A stretch of 50,443 nt of DNA from Candidatus Saccharimonadota bacterium (GTDB taxonomy: Bacteria; Patescibacteriota; Saccharimonadia; Saccharimonadales; 2-12-FULL-41-12): assembly GCA_016219345.1 (NCBI GenBank), contig JACRNE010000007.1, forward strand, positions 1-50,443, given 5' to 3'. The position numbers and the translations under genes were made by a program. Under the pieces are notes generated by a model. That model was not told the DNA's origin. It saw only the letters and a program-made list of their open reading frames with translations, and did no database searches. Each line of letters starts with the position of its first letter. Position 1 is the stretch's first letter. Shown here in pieces: positions 3,533-39,931 of the stretch.

Positions 3533-4228
3533 ATGCACTCACCTAAGGTAGCGATATTAGCCTCCGGTAGCGGAACGACTGCAGAGTCGTTTATTTCTTC
3601 GTGTGTTAATGGTGAAATCACTGCTGATGTGGCTTTGGTTATATCGAACCACAAAGACCCCGGCGTATTTGAAAAGGTCAGAAGGCTCAATGATCAACAT
3701 GGGCTAAACATTGAATGCATACATATAGGCAAAGCCAACTTCCCTGAGAAAGAAGGAGAGAAAGTTAAATATGGCTTTCAAACCGAAGCTGAGGAAGAAA
3801 AAATCCTGCAGGTTCTAAAAGAAAATGACATAGAACTTGTCCTGCTGCTTGGTTATATGAAAAGAGTTGGGCCTAAAATAGTTGACGAGTTCGGCTGGTT
3901 GCCAAATTACGAATCTGTATATAAATCAAGAATGATTAATACTCACCCCGGGCTGCTGCCAGAGACAAAAGGTCTGTACGGCCTTAATGTCCAAAAGCAT
4001 GTTATCTCGAAGGGACTTGCTGTGGCCGGACACTGCCTATTCGCGGTGGATGACGAGTATGACGACGGGCCAGTTATATCAGAACATTCGTTTGAAACAG
4101 ATCCAACAGAGGATGCTGAAGAGCTTTTTGAGCGAGTCAAAGAGTCAGAAAAAAAGTACTTGGCCGAAGACATACAAAATTTTATAGACAAACAGCGGGA
4201 ATATAATAAAATTGGGAATAATGTCTAA
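3533..4228 (+). CDS. purN: Phosphoribosylglycinamide formyltransferase
   Basis: VAILASGSGTTAESFI, VLLLGYMKRVGP, INTHPGLLPETKGLYG, AGHCLFAVDDEYDDGP. Confidence 0.92.
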   Translation: MHSPKVAILASGSGTTAESFISSCVNGEITADVALVISNHKDPGVFEKVRRLNDQHGLNIECIHIGKANFPEKEGEKVKYGFQTEAEEEKILQVLKENDIELVLLLGYMKRVGPKIVDEFGWLPNYESVYKSRMINTHPGLLPETKGLYGLNVQKHVISKGLAVAGHCLFAVDDEYDDGPVISEHSFETDPTEDAEELFERVKESEKKYLAEDIQNFIDKQREYNKIGNNV

Positions 4229-36038: not shown

Positions 36039-36046
36039 AATCAAAT
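36039..36046. repeat. Left target site duplication AATCAAAT
   Basis: Exact 8-bp match to 39924-39931, each abutting a terminal inverted repeat. Confidence 0.9.
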
Positions 36047-36112
36047 GGCGACTATCCCCTCAAAGCAAGTAACTTCTTAAAGTCTTAATGGTTATTGTGG
36101 TATAATAGTAAT

Positions 36113-36259
36113 CGCACCAGCTTGAGGTGCATAGTGAATCAAGCAGACTAAATCGGGTGGGAAAACACAGGTGTTTTATCTCAGATTAATCTGCGGATTC
36201 AAATTTTAAGCGGCTTTACAGCCCTATGAGACAAAACACAGTCTTGTAGGGCTTTTTTT
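36113..36259 (+). ncRNA. Candidate structured RNA with its own promoter and terminator
   Basis: TGgTATAAT at 36098-36106; GCACC/GGTGC hairpin; long stem GAATC-aa-GCAGA / TCTGC-g-GATTC with inner AAAACA-cagg-TGTTTT; terminator GCCCTATGAGAC/GTCTTGTAGGGC plus T7. Confidence 0.6.
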
Positions 36260-36306
36260 ATGGGTTGTTTACGACTTATAAATTAAATGTTCTATTAAAA
36301 ACATAA

Positions 36307-36383
36307 GCCAATGTAGCTCAGAGGATAGAGCGCTACTCTAGCGGAGATAGAGGTCGTCGGTTCGAGTCCGACCATTGGCACCA
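36307..36383 (+). tRNA. tRNA-Arg-like gene with aberrant anticodon arm (possible pseudo-tRNA)
   Basis: Perfect acceptor GCCAATG/CATTGGC, D arm GCTC/GAGC, T arm GTCGG-TTCGAGT-CCGAC, encoded CCA; anticodon region CTACTCTAGCGGAGATAG folds only with a bulge or mismatch. Confidence 0.65.
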
Positions 36384-36419
36384 GCATACGTCTGGTAGCC
36401 ACAATTTGGAGAAATGTAA

Positions 36420-36442
36420 AAGCCCTCTTGGGTGAGGGCTTT
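36420..36442 (+). terminator. Hairpin downstream of the tRNA-like gene
   Basis: AAAGCCCTC-ttgggt-GAGGGCTTT. Confidence 0.6.
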
Positions 36443-36567
36443 GCTACTCTAGCGTGTTTTTATCTTAGCACGTGATAGTTAAACTCGTCTACAAGTTTGT
36501 AAGACGTTTATTAAAGATACCCTAAAACATGAGACAAAAGTACAATATTAACTTCTTACAATATTCC

Positions 36568-36596
36568 TTGACAAGCAAGTACTGCTGGAGTATAAT
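36568..36596 (+). promoter_or_regulatory. Consensus sigma70-type promoter of the transposase
   Basis: TTGACA (36568-36573), 17 bp, TATAAT (36591-36596); ATG follows 7 bp later. Confidence 0.85.
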
Positions 36597-36603
36597 TAAG
36601 GAC

Positions 36604-37449
36604 ATGAGATACACATTTAAGGACTTCAAAGAGGAATACCCAGACGATACAGCTTGTCTCAATGCTGTACTAGAAAATCGTTATGGCAATACCTGTCCTC
36701 GTTGTGGGGTAATAGGCGTTAAGTTTCACCCCATCACAGGGCGACAAGGCTTTGTATGTTCTGAGTGTGATAAACATATCTATCCTCTAGCCGGTACTAT
36801 CTTTAGGAAGTCCACTACTAGTCTATGGAGCTGGTTTTACGCTATATACCTATTCTCCGTATCTAAGAATGGTGTATCGGCTAAGGAGCTAGAACGACAT
36901 TTAGGCGTTACTTATAAAACAGCATGGAGAATGGCCAAACAAATCAGGCTTTTAATGGAACAGGACGGGGAGATACTAACTGGTGATGTTGAAGTTGATG
37001 AGACTTACGCACCCTCACGTAAGCACCCACGGGCTTTAGGGCACAGTAAAAAGCAGGTTATCTTTGGTGCTGTTGAGCGTAACGGACGAGTAAATGCAAG
37101 TCATGTTAAAAGTGCAGGTGTTCGGGTACTTATGCCGATAATTGAAAACAACATACAAGCCGAAGCCACTATCTATAGTGATGAAGCCAGAGTTTATAAG
37201 ACCTTGAATAAGCGTGGTTACTCCCACACTACAGTTAATCACTCAAAGCTAGAGTATGTACGAGGAAACGCCCACACAAACACCATAGAGGGGTTCTGGT
37301 CTCAACTAAAGAGAAGTATAGATGGCACTTATCATGCTGTATCACCTAAGTATCTACAGAGTTACATTAACCAATTTGTATTTCAGTATAACTTTAGAGA
37401 TCTGCCTACTTGTCCTGTTCTTTTGGAACGGGCTGCGAAGCTTTCTTAA
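36604..37449 (+). CDS. IS1595/ISXO2-family DDE transposase with N-terminal zinc ribbon
   Basis: CPRCGVIGVKFHPITGRQGFVCSEC, GDVEVDETYAPSRKHPRALG, IYSDEARVYKTL, EYVRGNAHTNTIEGFWSQLKRSIDGTYHAVSPKYLQSYINQFVFQYNFR. Confidence 0.95.
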   Translation: MRYTFKDFKEEYPDDTACLNAVLENRYGNTCPRCGVIGVKFHPITGRQGFVCSECDKHIYPLAGTIFRKSTTSLWSWFYAIYLFSVSKNGVSAKELERHLGVTYKTAWRMAKQIRLLMEQDGEILTGDVEVDETYAPSRKHPRALGHSKKQVIFGAVERNGRVNASHVKSAGVRVLMPIIENNIQAEATIYSDEARVYKTLNKRGYSHTTVNHSKLEYVRGNAHTNTIEGFWSQLKRSIDGTYHAVSPKYLQSYINQFVFQYNFRDLPTCPVLLERAAKLS

Positions 37450-37492
37450 TTAGTCTTTTAAATAGTTTTTTACTCATACTCTTATTATAACT

Positions 37493-37999
37493 CTAATAAG
37501 TGGTCTTCGTCTTGCTGTACACCCTGCCATCAATATAGGTGATCATCAGACTGCCCTTATCCGTTAGTGGACTTCCGTAATCACAGAGTTCCATAGTGCC
37601 AACTCCCGGTGTCTCGCTTGTTGTGCAGCTGTCTGATGTCTTGTTGATGAGTTTCTCTACTTGGGCTTTTGTCTGACCATTCTGTATCTGCTGGTAGTAA
37701 GTATTTGGATCCCATGATGAAACAACAGGAGTATCTACTACAGATGAAACAACAGGTGGGCTGTAGGTTGTCAGGGTGGTGCTTCTTCCCCAGGTTAAAT
37801 ACCAGAATATGGTCTGCAAAATCATAAATAGAATACTAATAGCAATTAAGTGCTCACCTAATTTCTTGTCCAGTCGCTTATCTTTAGCTATGTAGACTAT
37901 TCCAACTATCAATCCTATTATCGGAATAAAGAAAGCTACTATCGTTAGAGCTAGGTAACTCTCGTGCTTGCTAGCCTTTACCTCTGTTTTGTCGGACAT
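37493..37999 (-). CDS. Membrane protein of unknown function (transposon cargo)
   Basis: Two TM segments followed by an extracytoplasmic domain with paired Cys (SDSCTTS, MELCDYG). Confidence 0.65.
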   Translation of the reverse strand: MSDKTEVKASKHESYLALTIVAFFIPIIGLIVGIVYIAKDKRLDKKLGEHLIAISILFMILQTIFWYLTWGRSTTLTTYSPPVVSSVVDTPVVSSWDPNTYYQQIQNGQTKAQVEKLINKTSDSCTTSETPGVGTMELCDYGSPLTDKGSLMITYIDGRVYSKTKTTY

Positions 38000-38031
38000 A
38001 TCATATTCTCCTTTTATTTATTAAGGCGCCC

Positions 38032-38060
38032 AAATAAAAAGGACACCCGTACTAGGTGTC
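38032..38060 (-). terminator. Rho-independent terminator in the leader of the 37493-37999 gene
   Basis: Minus strand GACACC-tagtacg-GGTGTC then C and TTTTTATTT. Confidence 0.7.
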
Positions 38061-38130
38061 TTAAGCCAACAGCAGGTTAAACCTAACTGAATTCGCACGG
38101 AGTGTCCATTCTATGGTTTAACCAATTCAA
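38061..38130 (-). promoter_or_regulatory. Attenuator-like leader upstream of the 37493-37999 gene
   Basis: GGTTAAACC/GGTTTAACC 9-bp stem whose loop contains GGACAC, complementary to GTGTCC of the terminator arm. Confidence 0.45.
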
Positions 38131-38180
38131 ATAAAAAACCGCCGCTGACTTAAGACAGTTTTATGATACGTCGAGCGGGT
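38130..38180 (-). terminator. Terminator of the caspase-like operon
   Basis: Minus strand ACCCGCTCGAC...GTCAGCGGCGGT followed by TTTTTATTT. Confidence 0.65.
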
Positions 38181-38204
38181 AACTAATTCAAGTCCGAGGA
38201 CTTC

Positions 38205-38861
38205 TTATATGGATGCATCTTGTTTGCCTAGGCAGACTTGGTGCTTCATATTAGTAAATACACAAGCAAGCATATCGCTTGCTCCTTCTGGGGCATCACT
38301 GCTCATTAATTCTTTCATCATTTTTTTTGAATACTCTATCGATCGTTTTGTTGCTTCGGCAGCGCTTTTACCTTTAAGGAGCGATACTACCACTTGATTT
38401 GATGGCATCATGACATAATTTGCTATCTTGTCTTCAAGAGGGTGATGTGTTTTCTCAATGTCGTAGCATAGCCAGAATTTTTCAGAATATCCTATATAGG
38501 CCAACACTCCTGCATCGACACAGTCCTGGCCAAGTTGCGCACCAGTACTACACGAACGAGCATACATAATAGTGCCTTTCAAGAAGTGCAAATTTGATGC
38601 ATCTACAAGAGGCTCGTTGTCGTATCCGTAAATAGTAGTTTCAGAACCATGGCCATTAATAACACATAGTTCTGGTTTCATTTTCTTCAAACGTCCATTA
38701 AGTTCTTTCGGAATTGCTTTTTTCGACTCGAGGTCTAAAATGCCATGGCCTCTGTCTGTTGCTTCCTTTAAAAGTTTTGTGGTCCAATAAAAAAGATAGT
38801 TTGTGACTAAGTCATAATCAGGTCTCGTAAATAAAATTGTCTTATTGGAGGAGTGAGCCAT
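38205..38861 (-). CDS. Caspase/CHAT-like cysteine peptidase (candidate)
   Basis: LCVINGHGSET (His-Gly) and IMYARSCSTGAQLG (Cys) motifs at caspase-like spacing; 218 aa. Confidence 0.7.
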   Translation of the reverse strand: MAHSSNKTILFTRPDYDLVTNYLFYWTTKLLKEATDRGHGILDLESKKAIPKELNGRLKKMKPELCVINGHGSETTIYGYDNEPLVDASNLHFLKGTIMYARSCSTGAQLGQDCVDAGVLAYIGYSEKFWLCYDIEKTHHPLEDKIANYVMMPSNQVVVSLLKGKSAAEATKRSIEYSKKMMKELMSSDAPEGASDMLACVFTNMKHQVCLGKQDASI

Positions 38862-39066
38862 TTTTTATTGAACGAAGAAATTCCAATTGCATTTCAACGT
38901 ATTCCTTACCTAAGTCGTCGTCTTCTTCTATGAGTCTTTTAAGTTCAGTGACGGTAAAGCTTCCTTCATTTCCAATAGCAATCCCCATATTTGCAGGCAT
39001 TGTACTTAATCTAGCTAGAATAAGGTTCTTTTCATCCGACGTAACAGACGAGTTTGTATCAATCAT
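38842..39066 (-). CDS. Small protein partner of the caspase-like gene
   Basis: 74-aa ORF overlapping the protease start by 20 bp. Confidence 0.75.
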   Translation of the reverse strand: MIDTNSSVTSDEKNLILARLSTMPANMGIAIGNEGSFTVTELKRLIEEDDDLGKEYVEMQLEFLRSIKNGSLLQ

Positions 39067-39254
39067 TAAATTATCTCCAACTCGGCTAACTTGCCAAGGA
39101 TTTCCTTACCTTTATCTGTATTATTATATACCTCAATATAAGCAGCATGCCAAGTGATAGGACCATCTGGATCAATAACTACAACAATATCGTTACGCAA
39201 GCCCAGAGGTAGACCAGCATAAATCTTATTAAACCTAACTTTTAATTCTTCCAT
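39066..39254 (-). CDS. Small protein, first gene of the caspase-like operon
   Basis: 62-aa ORF whose stop overlaps the next start; minus-strand TATAAA upstream. Confidence 0.75.
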   Translation of the reverse strand: MEELKVRFNKIYAGLPLGLRNDIVVVIDPDGPITWHAAYIEVYNNTDKGKEILGKLAELEII

Positions 39255-39270
39255 GATTTTTGTGTTTTAT

Positions 39271-39303
39271 AATGTTCATAACATTACGCATTCCTGTCGG
39301 AAT
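39271..39303 (-). promoter_or_regulatory. Promoter/operator-like region of the caspase-like operon
   Basis: AATGTT-cat-AACATT (39271-39285) and ATTCC-tgtc-GGAAT (39290-39303) dyads next to the minus-strand -10. Confidence 0.4.
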
Positions 39304-39362
39304 TGTAGCATGTTTTTACAATATTCAAAGCATTGCTATAATCTGCTTCTTTTTCAATAAAA

Positions 39363-39707
39363 CTACAGCTTCTCCCAGTCCAAAAACTCCAAAGCATCGT
39401 CCATCCTTCTGAAGTTTTGGCTTATGGCTCTACTAGTCTTATTCTCAGCCTCAATCCAATATCTATCGTCTCCAGCCTCCATTCCATGATCATAAACTTT
39501 AATCATTACTTTTTCTTTAGTTTCAGGATTTGTTCCCTCGAAAATAGATACCCTACAAACATCTTTAAGGCCGGAATATCGTTTTATGCATGCAATAGCT
39601 TTTGTATCATCTTCTGTCATTCTATCCTTAGAATTGCATATATATCTATACTTGTGAAGAACGGGGGTATAATTATAAGCGGAAGGAGTAAAATAATGTA
39701 TTTTCAA
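39363..39707 (-). CDS. Hypothetical protein (start may be internal, at MTEDD)
   Basis: 114-aa ORF, coding-like C-terminal part. Confidence 0.5.
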   Translation of the reverse strand: MKIHYFTPSAYNYTPVLHKYRYICNSKDRMTEDDTKAIACIKRYSGLKDVCRVSIFEGTNPETKEKVMIKVYDHGMEAGDDRYWIEAENKTSRAISQNFRRMDDALEFLDWEKL

Positions 39708-39884
39708 ATTTTCAAAAATCCATCATTACAACAGCCCTATTGGTGGGTTATCAAGAGTTCGGGAAACCATGAAATAATGTGTCATTCTGAGATGCTGAGT
39801 AGTAAACAAGCCTGCATAAATGCTATAGCCAAAATATGTCGAGAAGCAGGGTCTGCGCTTTACTACGATAGAACTGGTGAGTAA
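39696..39884 (+). CDS. DUF1508/YegP-like small protein
   Basis: GGAAGGA RBS; MYFQIFKNPSLQQPYWWVIKSSGNHEIMCHSEMLSSKQACINAIAKICREAGSALYYDRTGE. Confidence 0.75.
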   Translation: MYFQIFKNPSLQQPYWWVIKSSGNHEIMCHSEMLSSKQACINAIAKICREAGSALYYDRTGE

Positions 39885-39923
39885 GAGCATTATCTGCCTA
39901 CTTGCTCTGAGGGGATAGTCGCC

Positions 39924-39931
39924 AATCAAAT
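39924..39931. repeat. Right target site duplication AATCAAAT
   Basis: Exact match to 36039-36046. Confidence 0.9.

Follow-up and report, generated by a model that had tools for sequence, protein, structure and literature searches.

The segment at positions 36039-39931 of the DNA analysed here (the window, that is, the whole 50,443-nt stretch of the Candidatus Saccharimonadota bacterium contig JACRNE010000007.1) raises the question of what a tRNA-like gene and a structured RNA are doing in the left arm of a transposon. A passenger transposon of the IS1595 family, from Saccharibacteria (Ca. Saccharimonadota), has inserted here, and in many elements of the family a stretch of 350-890 bp separates the left terminal inverted repeat (TIR) from the transposase gene. 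The transposon alone adds a new member to a known kind; what appears to be new in itself is the two-RNA module found within this arm, in which a tRNA-like gene is accompanied by a convergent gene for a predicted small RNA, antisense to the anticodon arm of its own partner. In the window element, the left arm was organized as follows.

36099-36262, plus strand: -10 box (TATAAT), structured leader and intrinsic terminator (36220-36259), located 5′ of the tRNA-like gene; promoter by consensus only.
36307-36383, plus strand: tRNA-like gene with encoded CCA, an A20 (Arg-type) body and the 8-nt anticodon loop CUAGCGGA (ARAGORN; Rfam RF00005, 55 bits; cloverleaf check).
36332-36343, plus strand: copy 1 of GCTACTCTAGCG, 12 nt, covering the 5′ anticodon stem and loop, the predicted antisense target.
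36412-36455, minus strand: predicted antisense RNA of about 44 nt, composed of 12 antisense nt (the reverse complement of copy 2), a terminator hairpin (36418-36442) and a U-run; start placed to within 2 nt on either side.
36462-36470, minus strand: extended -10 promoter TGCTAAGAT of the antisense RNA, by consensus across modules (TGCTATAAT).

It was observed that the acceptor, D, anticodon and T stems of the cloverleaf were all present in the window copy, with only one mismatch in the anticodon stem. A functional tRNA would have a 7-nt anticodon loop and matching identity elements, whereas the loop CUAGCGGA has 8 nt and other copies bring together conflicting bodies and anticodons. The window contains the 12-mer GCTACTCTAGCG at two places only, the tRNA-like gene and the antisense gene downstream of it (copy 2, 36443-36454), where on the minus strand it lies 7 nt after the extended -10 box and directly before the hairpin with its U-run. 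A sequence-only reading of this locus had listed the structured RNA and the tRNA-like gene as parts of an unfamiliar payload. Both are real, as indicated by the Rfam score of the gene and the fold z-score of the leader (-4.87), but they constitute a recurrent non-coding module rather than an odd cargo, and that reading had overlooked both the repeat of the anticodon arm (36443-36454) and the promoter on the minus strand (36462-36470). The search of the leader RNA against Rfam returned no family beyond tRNA. Between the antisense and transposase promoters (~36470-36567), a short inverted repeat (GTCCACNNCTNNTGCGGAC-like) and TATTAAAGATRYC are common to several relatives, and this stretch is a possible operator.

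The same arrangement was found in 14 insertion sequence (IS) elements (the window element, L006, L007, L007b, L009, L011, L012, L036, L063, L070, L071, L082, L176 and L223), which carry 14 different repeat sequences. In all of them the two copies were exact, 11-15 nt long and 83-117 nt apart; when a further locus beside an HsdR gene is included, in which 15 of 16 nt agree, the anticodon-arm match is exact in 14 of 15 modules. Minus-strand promoters resembling TGCTATAAT were present in nearly all 14 IS modules, and the antisense RNA predicted from them, of about 45 nt, would comprise 11-16 nt antisense to its own anticodon arm followed by a terminator (predicted minimum free energy of -10.5 to -16.6 for the terminators and -20.6 to -29.8 kcal/mol for the duplexes). 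Comparison between elements found no 8-mer common to the repeats of any two (0 of 182 ordered cross-pairs), so each element preserves its internal match as the sequences drift apart, which is what base-pairing RNAs would be expected to show. Eleven of the modules were recovered as tRNAs by ARAGORN or cmscan, which are blind to the repeat, and all 11 possess it. Among host tRNAs, used as a control, 1 of 66 had even a 9-mer recurrence in the 200 nt downstream, and a scan of 610 kb of the own genome revealed three chance repeats, none with a T-loop. The 14 IS instances and these two controls ruled out a chance repeat. The anatomy of the module is well supported, with regard to the tRNA folds, the exact antisense match of each element and the placement of promoter and terminator. 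An attenuator upstream of the tRNA-like gene is only suggestive as a feature of the module: a strict scan predicted one for 9 of the 14 modules, in 8 of them no more than 150 nt away, and, within that same distance, one for 12 of 46 host tRNAs.

Left arms also varied in content. In L005, L008 and L088, a different, 58-nt structured RNA with 10-bp and 9-bp stems, a 9-nt loop and the 3′ end CUGGCCA replaces the tRNA-like gene; these three arms also have a minus-strand promoter and terminator, and no matching antisense repeat was found in them. The arm of L010 looks as if the DNA separating the two copies had been deleted. When the left-arm RNA modules, together with the alternative RNA and this deleted copy, were placed on a phylogeny of 38 transposases, about six gains or losses were needed, which indicates that left arms are exchanged or lost. 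In L064, positions 3555-3676 matched the LOOT RNA (RF03000) just under the cut-off (45.6 versus 46.4 bits).

The module was also found apart from the transposase. In L007b and L223, the transposase has been deleted, yet repeat, promoter and terminator are intact. Moreover, a search of 305 genomes for GGGG...TAGTTTAAC...CTCCACCA yielded two matches only, the known L007 copy and a tRNA-like gene in another genome, G153 (L280 3589-4090, contig G153:C19). In the latter, 15 of 16 nt of the anticodon arm recur 401 nt further downstream, where the copy again follows a hairpin and is accompanied by a minus-strand TGATATATT box; a 73-aa open reading frame (ORF) lies between both RNA genes, the upstream gene encodes a type I restriction HsdR, and no matching TIR was detected nearby. 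A device serving only the transposase is less likely, because L007b and L223 keep the module in the absence of a transposase and a similar one lies beside HsdR in G153.

Almost all tRNA-like bodies retain intact acceptor, D and T stems in spite of their differing sequences; 12 of 14 genes encode the CCA end (L071 judged by eye), and most anticodon loops have U33 and a purine at position 37. An Ala-type body, starting with GGGG, was recognized in L006, L007, L011, L012, L036 and L176, as well as in G153. All six GGGG-type IS bodies carry G3:U70 with A73, and G3:U70 occurs again in G153. This base pair is the major identity element for alanine charging, and alanyl-tRNA synthetase does not read the anticodon. 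The anticodons of the six are, in the same order, GCG, GUC, GUC, CGA, GCG and GUC, and that of G153 is probably GAC, so that the seven Ala-type bodies bear anticodons for Arg, Asp, Ser or Val and none for alanine. An Arg-type body, with G18-G19-A20 as in the host's own tRNA-Arg, was assigned to the window element, L007b, L009, L070, L082 and L223. Among these, L009, L007b and L223 combine the A20 body with the anticodon GCU, which reads serine codons and keeps C35 and U36 for arginyl-tRNA synthetase (ArgRS); the L007b copy is nearest to tRNA-Arg(UCU) of its own genome. The window anticodon is GCG, in a loop brought to 8 nt by an extra A, and the loops of L007 and L176 likewise have one base extra. 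Anticodon loops of 8 nt are the classic form of +1 frameshift tRNAs.

What the two RNAs do is proposed here from their sequences. We give an even chance to the reading that the transposon carries an RNA-only addiction pair, in which the tRNA-like RNA would be harmful when free and the antisense RNA would be its antidote. The plus-strand tRNA-like gene would be attenuated, and the tiny RNA would be produced convergently on the minus strand from downstream. The first ~12 nt of the antisense RNA would pair with the stem and loop of the anticodon arm, taking in positions 34-36 in every loop that allows numbering, and would either block the anticodon or misfold the nascent tRNA-like RNA. When free, the latter would most likely do harm by mis-decoding, where the identities of body and anticodon differ, or by frameshifting, where the loop has 8 nt, as in the window. 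In this way, the pair would penalize loss of the element. An addiction module fits the double restraint (often an upstream terminator, and a good antisense promoter), the mobile context and the persistence without transposase; transcription, charging, toxicity and addiction are steps that we infer from the DNA. More tentatively, with a little less than an even chance, the modules may represent a new class of RNA-only addiction module, in which a mis-decoding or frameshifting tRNA-like toxin is opposed by a ~45-nt RNA antisense to its own anticodon arm, the pairs diversifying like incompatibility groups on IS1595-type transposons and in at least one restriction locus of Saccharibacteria.

Several observations weigh against this proposal. 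The window copy joins an Arg-type body to an Arg-type anticodon (GCG), being unusual only in its 8-nt loop and one stem mismatch, and the A20 bodies of L070 and L082 carry the anticodons AUC and AGC, which ArgRS should disfavour. Decoding is perhaps not the point everywhere, given that the loops of L063 and L071 would be barely capable of it, that CCA is missing from L071 and that the L223 gene has TTCA at its end. The bodies were assigned by identity elements because scoring against the nearest host tRNA was ambiguous, the window copy being nearest to Thr and several Ala-types to Gly. In addition, the module is not obligatory, since L005, L008 and L088 carry another RNA. Confidence in the addiction function is moderate, as simple missense decoding does not account for L063, L071, L070 and L082 or for the Arg/Arg agreement in the window copy.

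The divergence of specificities as in incompatibility systems, together with the position of the module beside the divergent transposase promoter in nearly all copies, would also suit a self-limiting control of transposition of the Tn10 RNA-OUT or plasmid copy control type, in which the tRNA-like RNA would aid transposase expression or transposition and the antisense RNA would dampen it, the specificities acting as incompatibility groups. However, the transposase mRNA is not the antisense target, because the 12-mer is confined in the window to the tRNA-like and antisense genes; the transposase gene is read in one unbroken frame from a strong promoter of its own, and the module is kept after transposase loss and occurs beside HsdR with no TIR detected. 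We therefore regard such control as rather unlikely. The intact cloverleaf, the U33 and purine 37 of most loops and the CCA of 12 of 14 copies recall instead a useful passenger tRNA, supplying codons or replacing host tRNAs cleaved by anticodon nucleases, with the antisense RNA preventing overexpression, and in the own genome (87% complete) no tRNA-Arg reading CGY was detected. A normal tRNA-Arg(GCG) is nevertheless present in a relative, most copies combine a body with a non-matching anticodon, additional loop bases and mismatched stem pairs occur, and supply tRNAs do not need a dedicated antisense RNA, which makes this explanation quite improbable.

The roles might also be reversed, the antisense RNA being the active agent against host tRNAs with similar anticodon arms and the tRNA-like RNA a protective decoy. 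Some loops do equal a host anticodon loop, as CCTGTCA does in L011 and the host tRNA-Asp, but the stems differ, so that pairing with host tRNAs would be weak. Host tRNAs were rejected as the main target of the window antisense RNA, the best match being 9 of 12 nt (tRNA-Ala), and a decoy seems very improbable. Finally, the two copies may not denote an RNA pair at all, but the footprint of recombination, as an attachment-type direct repeat or a slippage duplication. tRNA genes commonly serve as integration sites, and the deletion-like arm of L010 would be explained; on the other hand, copy 2 always lies between a minus-strand extended -10 box and a terminator, at the expected RNA start, the copies are just ~100 bp apart with no recombinase, and 14 unrelated sequences would demand independent duplications at the same tRNA position. 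We see scarcely any chance for such a footprint.

The addiction pair proposed here would be carried by an element whose borders and genes are as follows.

36039-36046, unstranded: left target-site duplication (TSD) AATCAAAT; empty site in the relatives G001 and G004.
36047-36071, plus strand: left TIR, family-wide in relatives.
36568-36596, plus strand: transposase promoter TTGACA-17-TATAAT, conserved in relatives; mRNA predicted to be nearly leaderless.
36604-37449, plus strand: IS1595-family transposase, 281 aa from a conserved MRYT start (NCBIfam and Pfam matches).
37406-37477, minus strand: cationic peptide of 23 aa, MSKKLFKRLIKKASQPVPKEQDK, conserved and probably leaderless, encoded opposite the 3′ end of the transposase gene.
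37493-37999, minus strand: small predicted membrane protein of 168 aa, cargo; no family above cut-off.
38205-38861, minus strand: 218-aa ORF, cargo, possible clan CD cysteine peptidase (INGHGSE and ARSCSTG motifs, by eye).
38842-39066, minus strand: 74-aa ORF, cargo, no family.
39066-39254, minus strand: 62-aa ORF, cargo, no family.
39363-39707, minus strand: 114-aa ORF (TTG start), cargo, no family.
39696-39884, plus strand: DUF1508 protein of 62 aa, cargo (PF07411, E 2.1e-7).
39899-39923, minus strand: right TIR, inverted copy of the left one.
39924-39931, unstranded: right TSD AATCAAAT.

The sequence-only reading had proposed an IS1595-family passenger transposon with clean TIRs, and this held throughout. 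The left TIR GGCGACTATCCCCTCAAAGCAAGTA and its inverted copy agree at all but one of 25 bp, and AATCAAAT, a perfect 8-bp repeat, directly abuts both TIRs, as expected of the family, in which imperfect TIRs are accompanied by an 8-bp duplication. When the flanks were joined and the family was searched, an empty site was found in two same-family relatives, G001 (88% identity) and G004 (77%), and the alignment crosses the duplication without interruption; 36039-39931 is thus an insertion and not the ancestral locus. In its own 735-kb genome the element is single-copy, the TIR being confined to the two ends of this insertion. The IS1595/ISXO2-type transposase claimed between the TIRs was borne out by NF033547 (transpos_IS1595, E 6.7e-58, above cut-off), PF12762 (DDE_Tnp_IS1595, E 6.1e-39) and the N-terminal IS1595 zinc ribbon PF12760 (30.4 bits, cut-off 25.4); this DDE transposase would act on the TIRs and leave the 8-bp duplication.

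A genome scan returned 51 relatives of the transposase, the closest in Saccharibacteria (80% identity and down). The TIRs are not a product of chance, because 18 further loci have related transposases between the same ends, each time with an exact 8-bp TSD; a degenerate TIR pattern matched 31 of 393 genomes of the Saccharimonadota class, versus none of the 393 for the reversed pattern. The TIR search, the empty-site search and the comparison of cargo, which varies between copies, had all been proposed beforehand, and each check that was run came out favourably. Several TIR pairs enclose other genes and no transposase, among them a 1.34-kb element with an ImmA/IrrE-like ORF (label by eye) and a 549-bp element, both with identical 8-bp flanks. 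Transposase-less elements or derivatives with the same TIRs include L239, L240, L222, L224, L213 and L214, with ImmA/IrrE-like, ATPase-like or small membrane proteins as cargo (labels by eye), and one such derivative is a 122-bp TIR pair resembling a miniature inverted-repeat transposable element. Six distant transposase relatives were found in viral contigs, none with the RNA module, and plasmids gave just one 72-bp match, in the tRNA-like region.

With regard to the cargo, ORF 38205-38861 had no match in Pfam, NCBIfam, PADLOC or PDB, and its AlphaFold model (predicted local distance difference test score of 38) was unusable. The cationic peptide exists in 16 versions of 23-27 aa, some longer (window, L005-L009, L185, L193, L213 and others), about half of which have a TATAAT-like box shortly 5′ of the ATG, consistent with a leaderless mRNA. 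It also adjoins the TIR in transposase-less elements, where it may be a mere remnant.

The IS1595 family is known for transposons with passenger genes and an 8-bp TSD, and the window element shares with them the transposase with its zinc ribbon, the TIRs, the TSD and the passenger genes; unlike them, the present family has a long non-coding left arm with the tRNA-like/antisense module, an antisense peptide ORF at the transposase 3′ end and saccharibacterial cargo. The module resembles IS10/Tn10 RNA-IN/RNA-OUT in placing a short antisense RNA in a transposon end region, but it does not target the transposase mRNA, the 12-mer of the window being absent from it, and it survives transposase loss. 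Phage and plasmid tRNAs likewise have a cloverleaf, an encoded CCA and a mobile context, whereas the tRNA-like genes add an anticodon/body mismatch in most copies, 8-nt loops in several and a dedicated antisense RNA.

Type I and type VIII toxin-antitoxin pairs (hok/sok; SdsR/RyeA) also set a small antisense RNA beside its target RNA, with mobile carriage and divergent specificities. As in type VIII, a small RNA complementary to a putative RNA toxin is predicted from the DNA (11-15 nt, exact in 14 of 14, and 15 of 16 nt at the further locus); unlike in type I, the target is a tRNA-like RNA and not the mRNA of a small-protein toxin, and the module departs from both in pairing with the anticodon arm and in a toxicity that is only putative. 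CreTA is described as a CRISPR-regulated RNA toxin that acts on translation, sometimes via tRNA, together with a short-guide RNA antitoxin (PMC8501985, PMC10097628). On that description, the module shares an RNA toxin acting on translation, putative here, and an RNA antitoxin with a short guide, but it would use direct antisense pairing with no Cas effector or CRISPR repeat, and its candidate toxin is itself tRNA-like. No repeat array was found in the element, and its proteins gave no PADLOC match. The nearest ideas are therefore RNA-RNA toxin-antitoxin pairs and CreTA. To our knowledge, neither has a tRNA-like partner addressed through the anticodon arm, and we know of no earlier mobile element in which a tRNA-like RNA is encoded along with an antisense RNA dedicated to its anticodon arm; a literature search, with subscription papers outside its reach, found no precedent for the module.

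If the tRNA-like RNA is toxic, translation fidelity itself would be the weapon of an addiction system. The hosts are ultrasmall, host-dependent bacteria in which few such systems have been characterised, and the simple pairing rule, 12 nt that differ from element to element, makes function and specificity directly testable with a handful of constructs.

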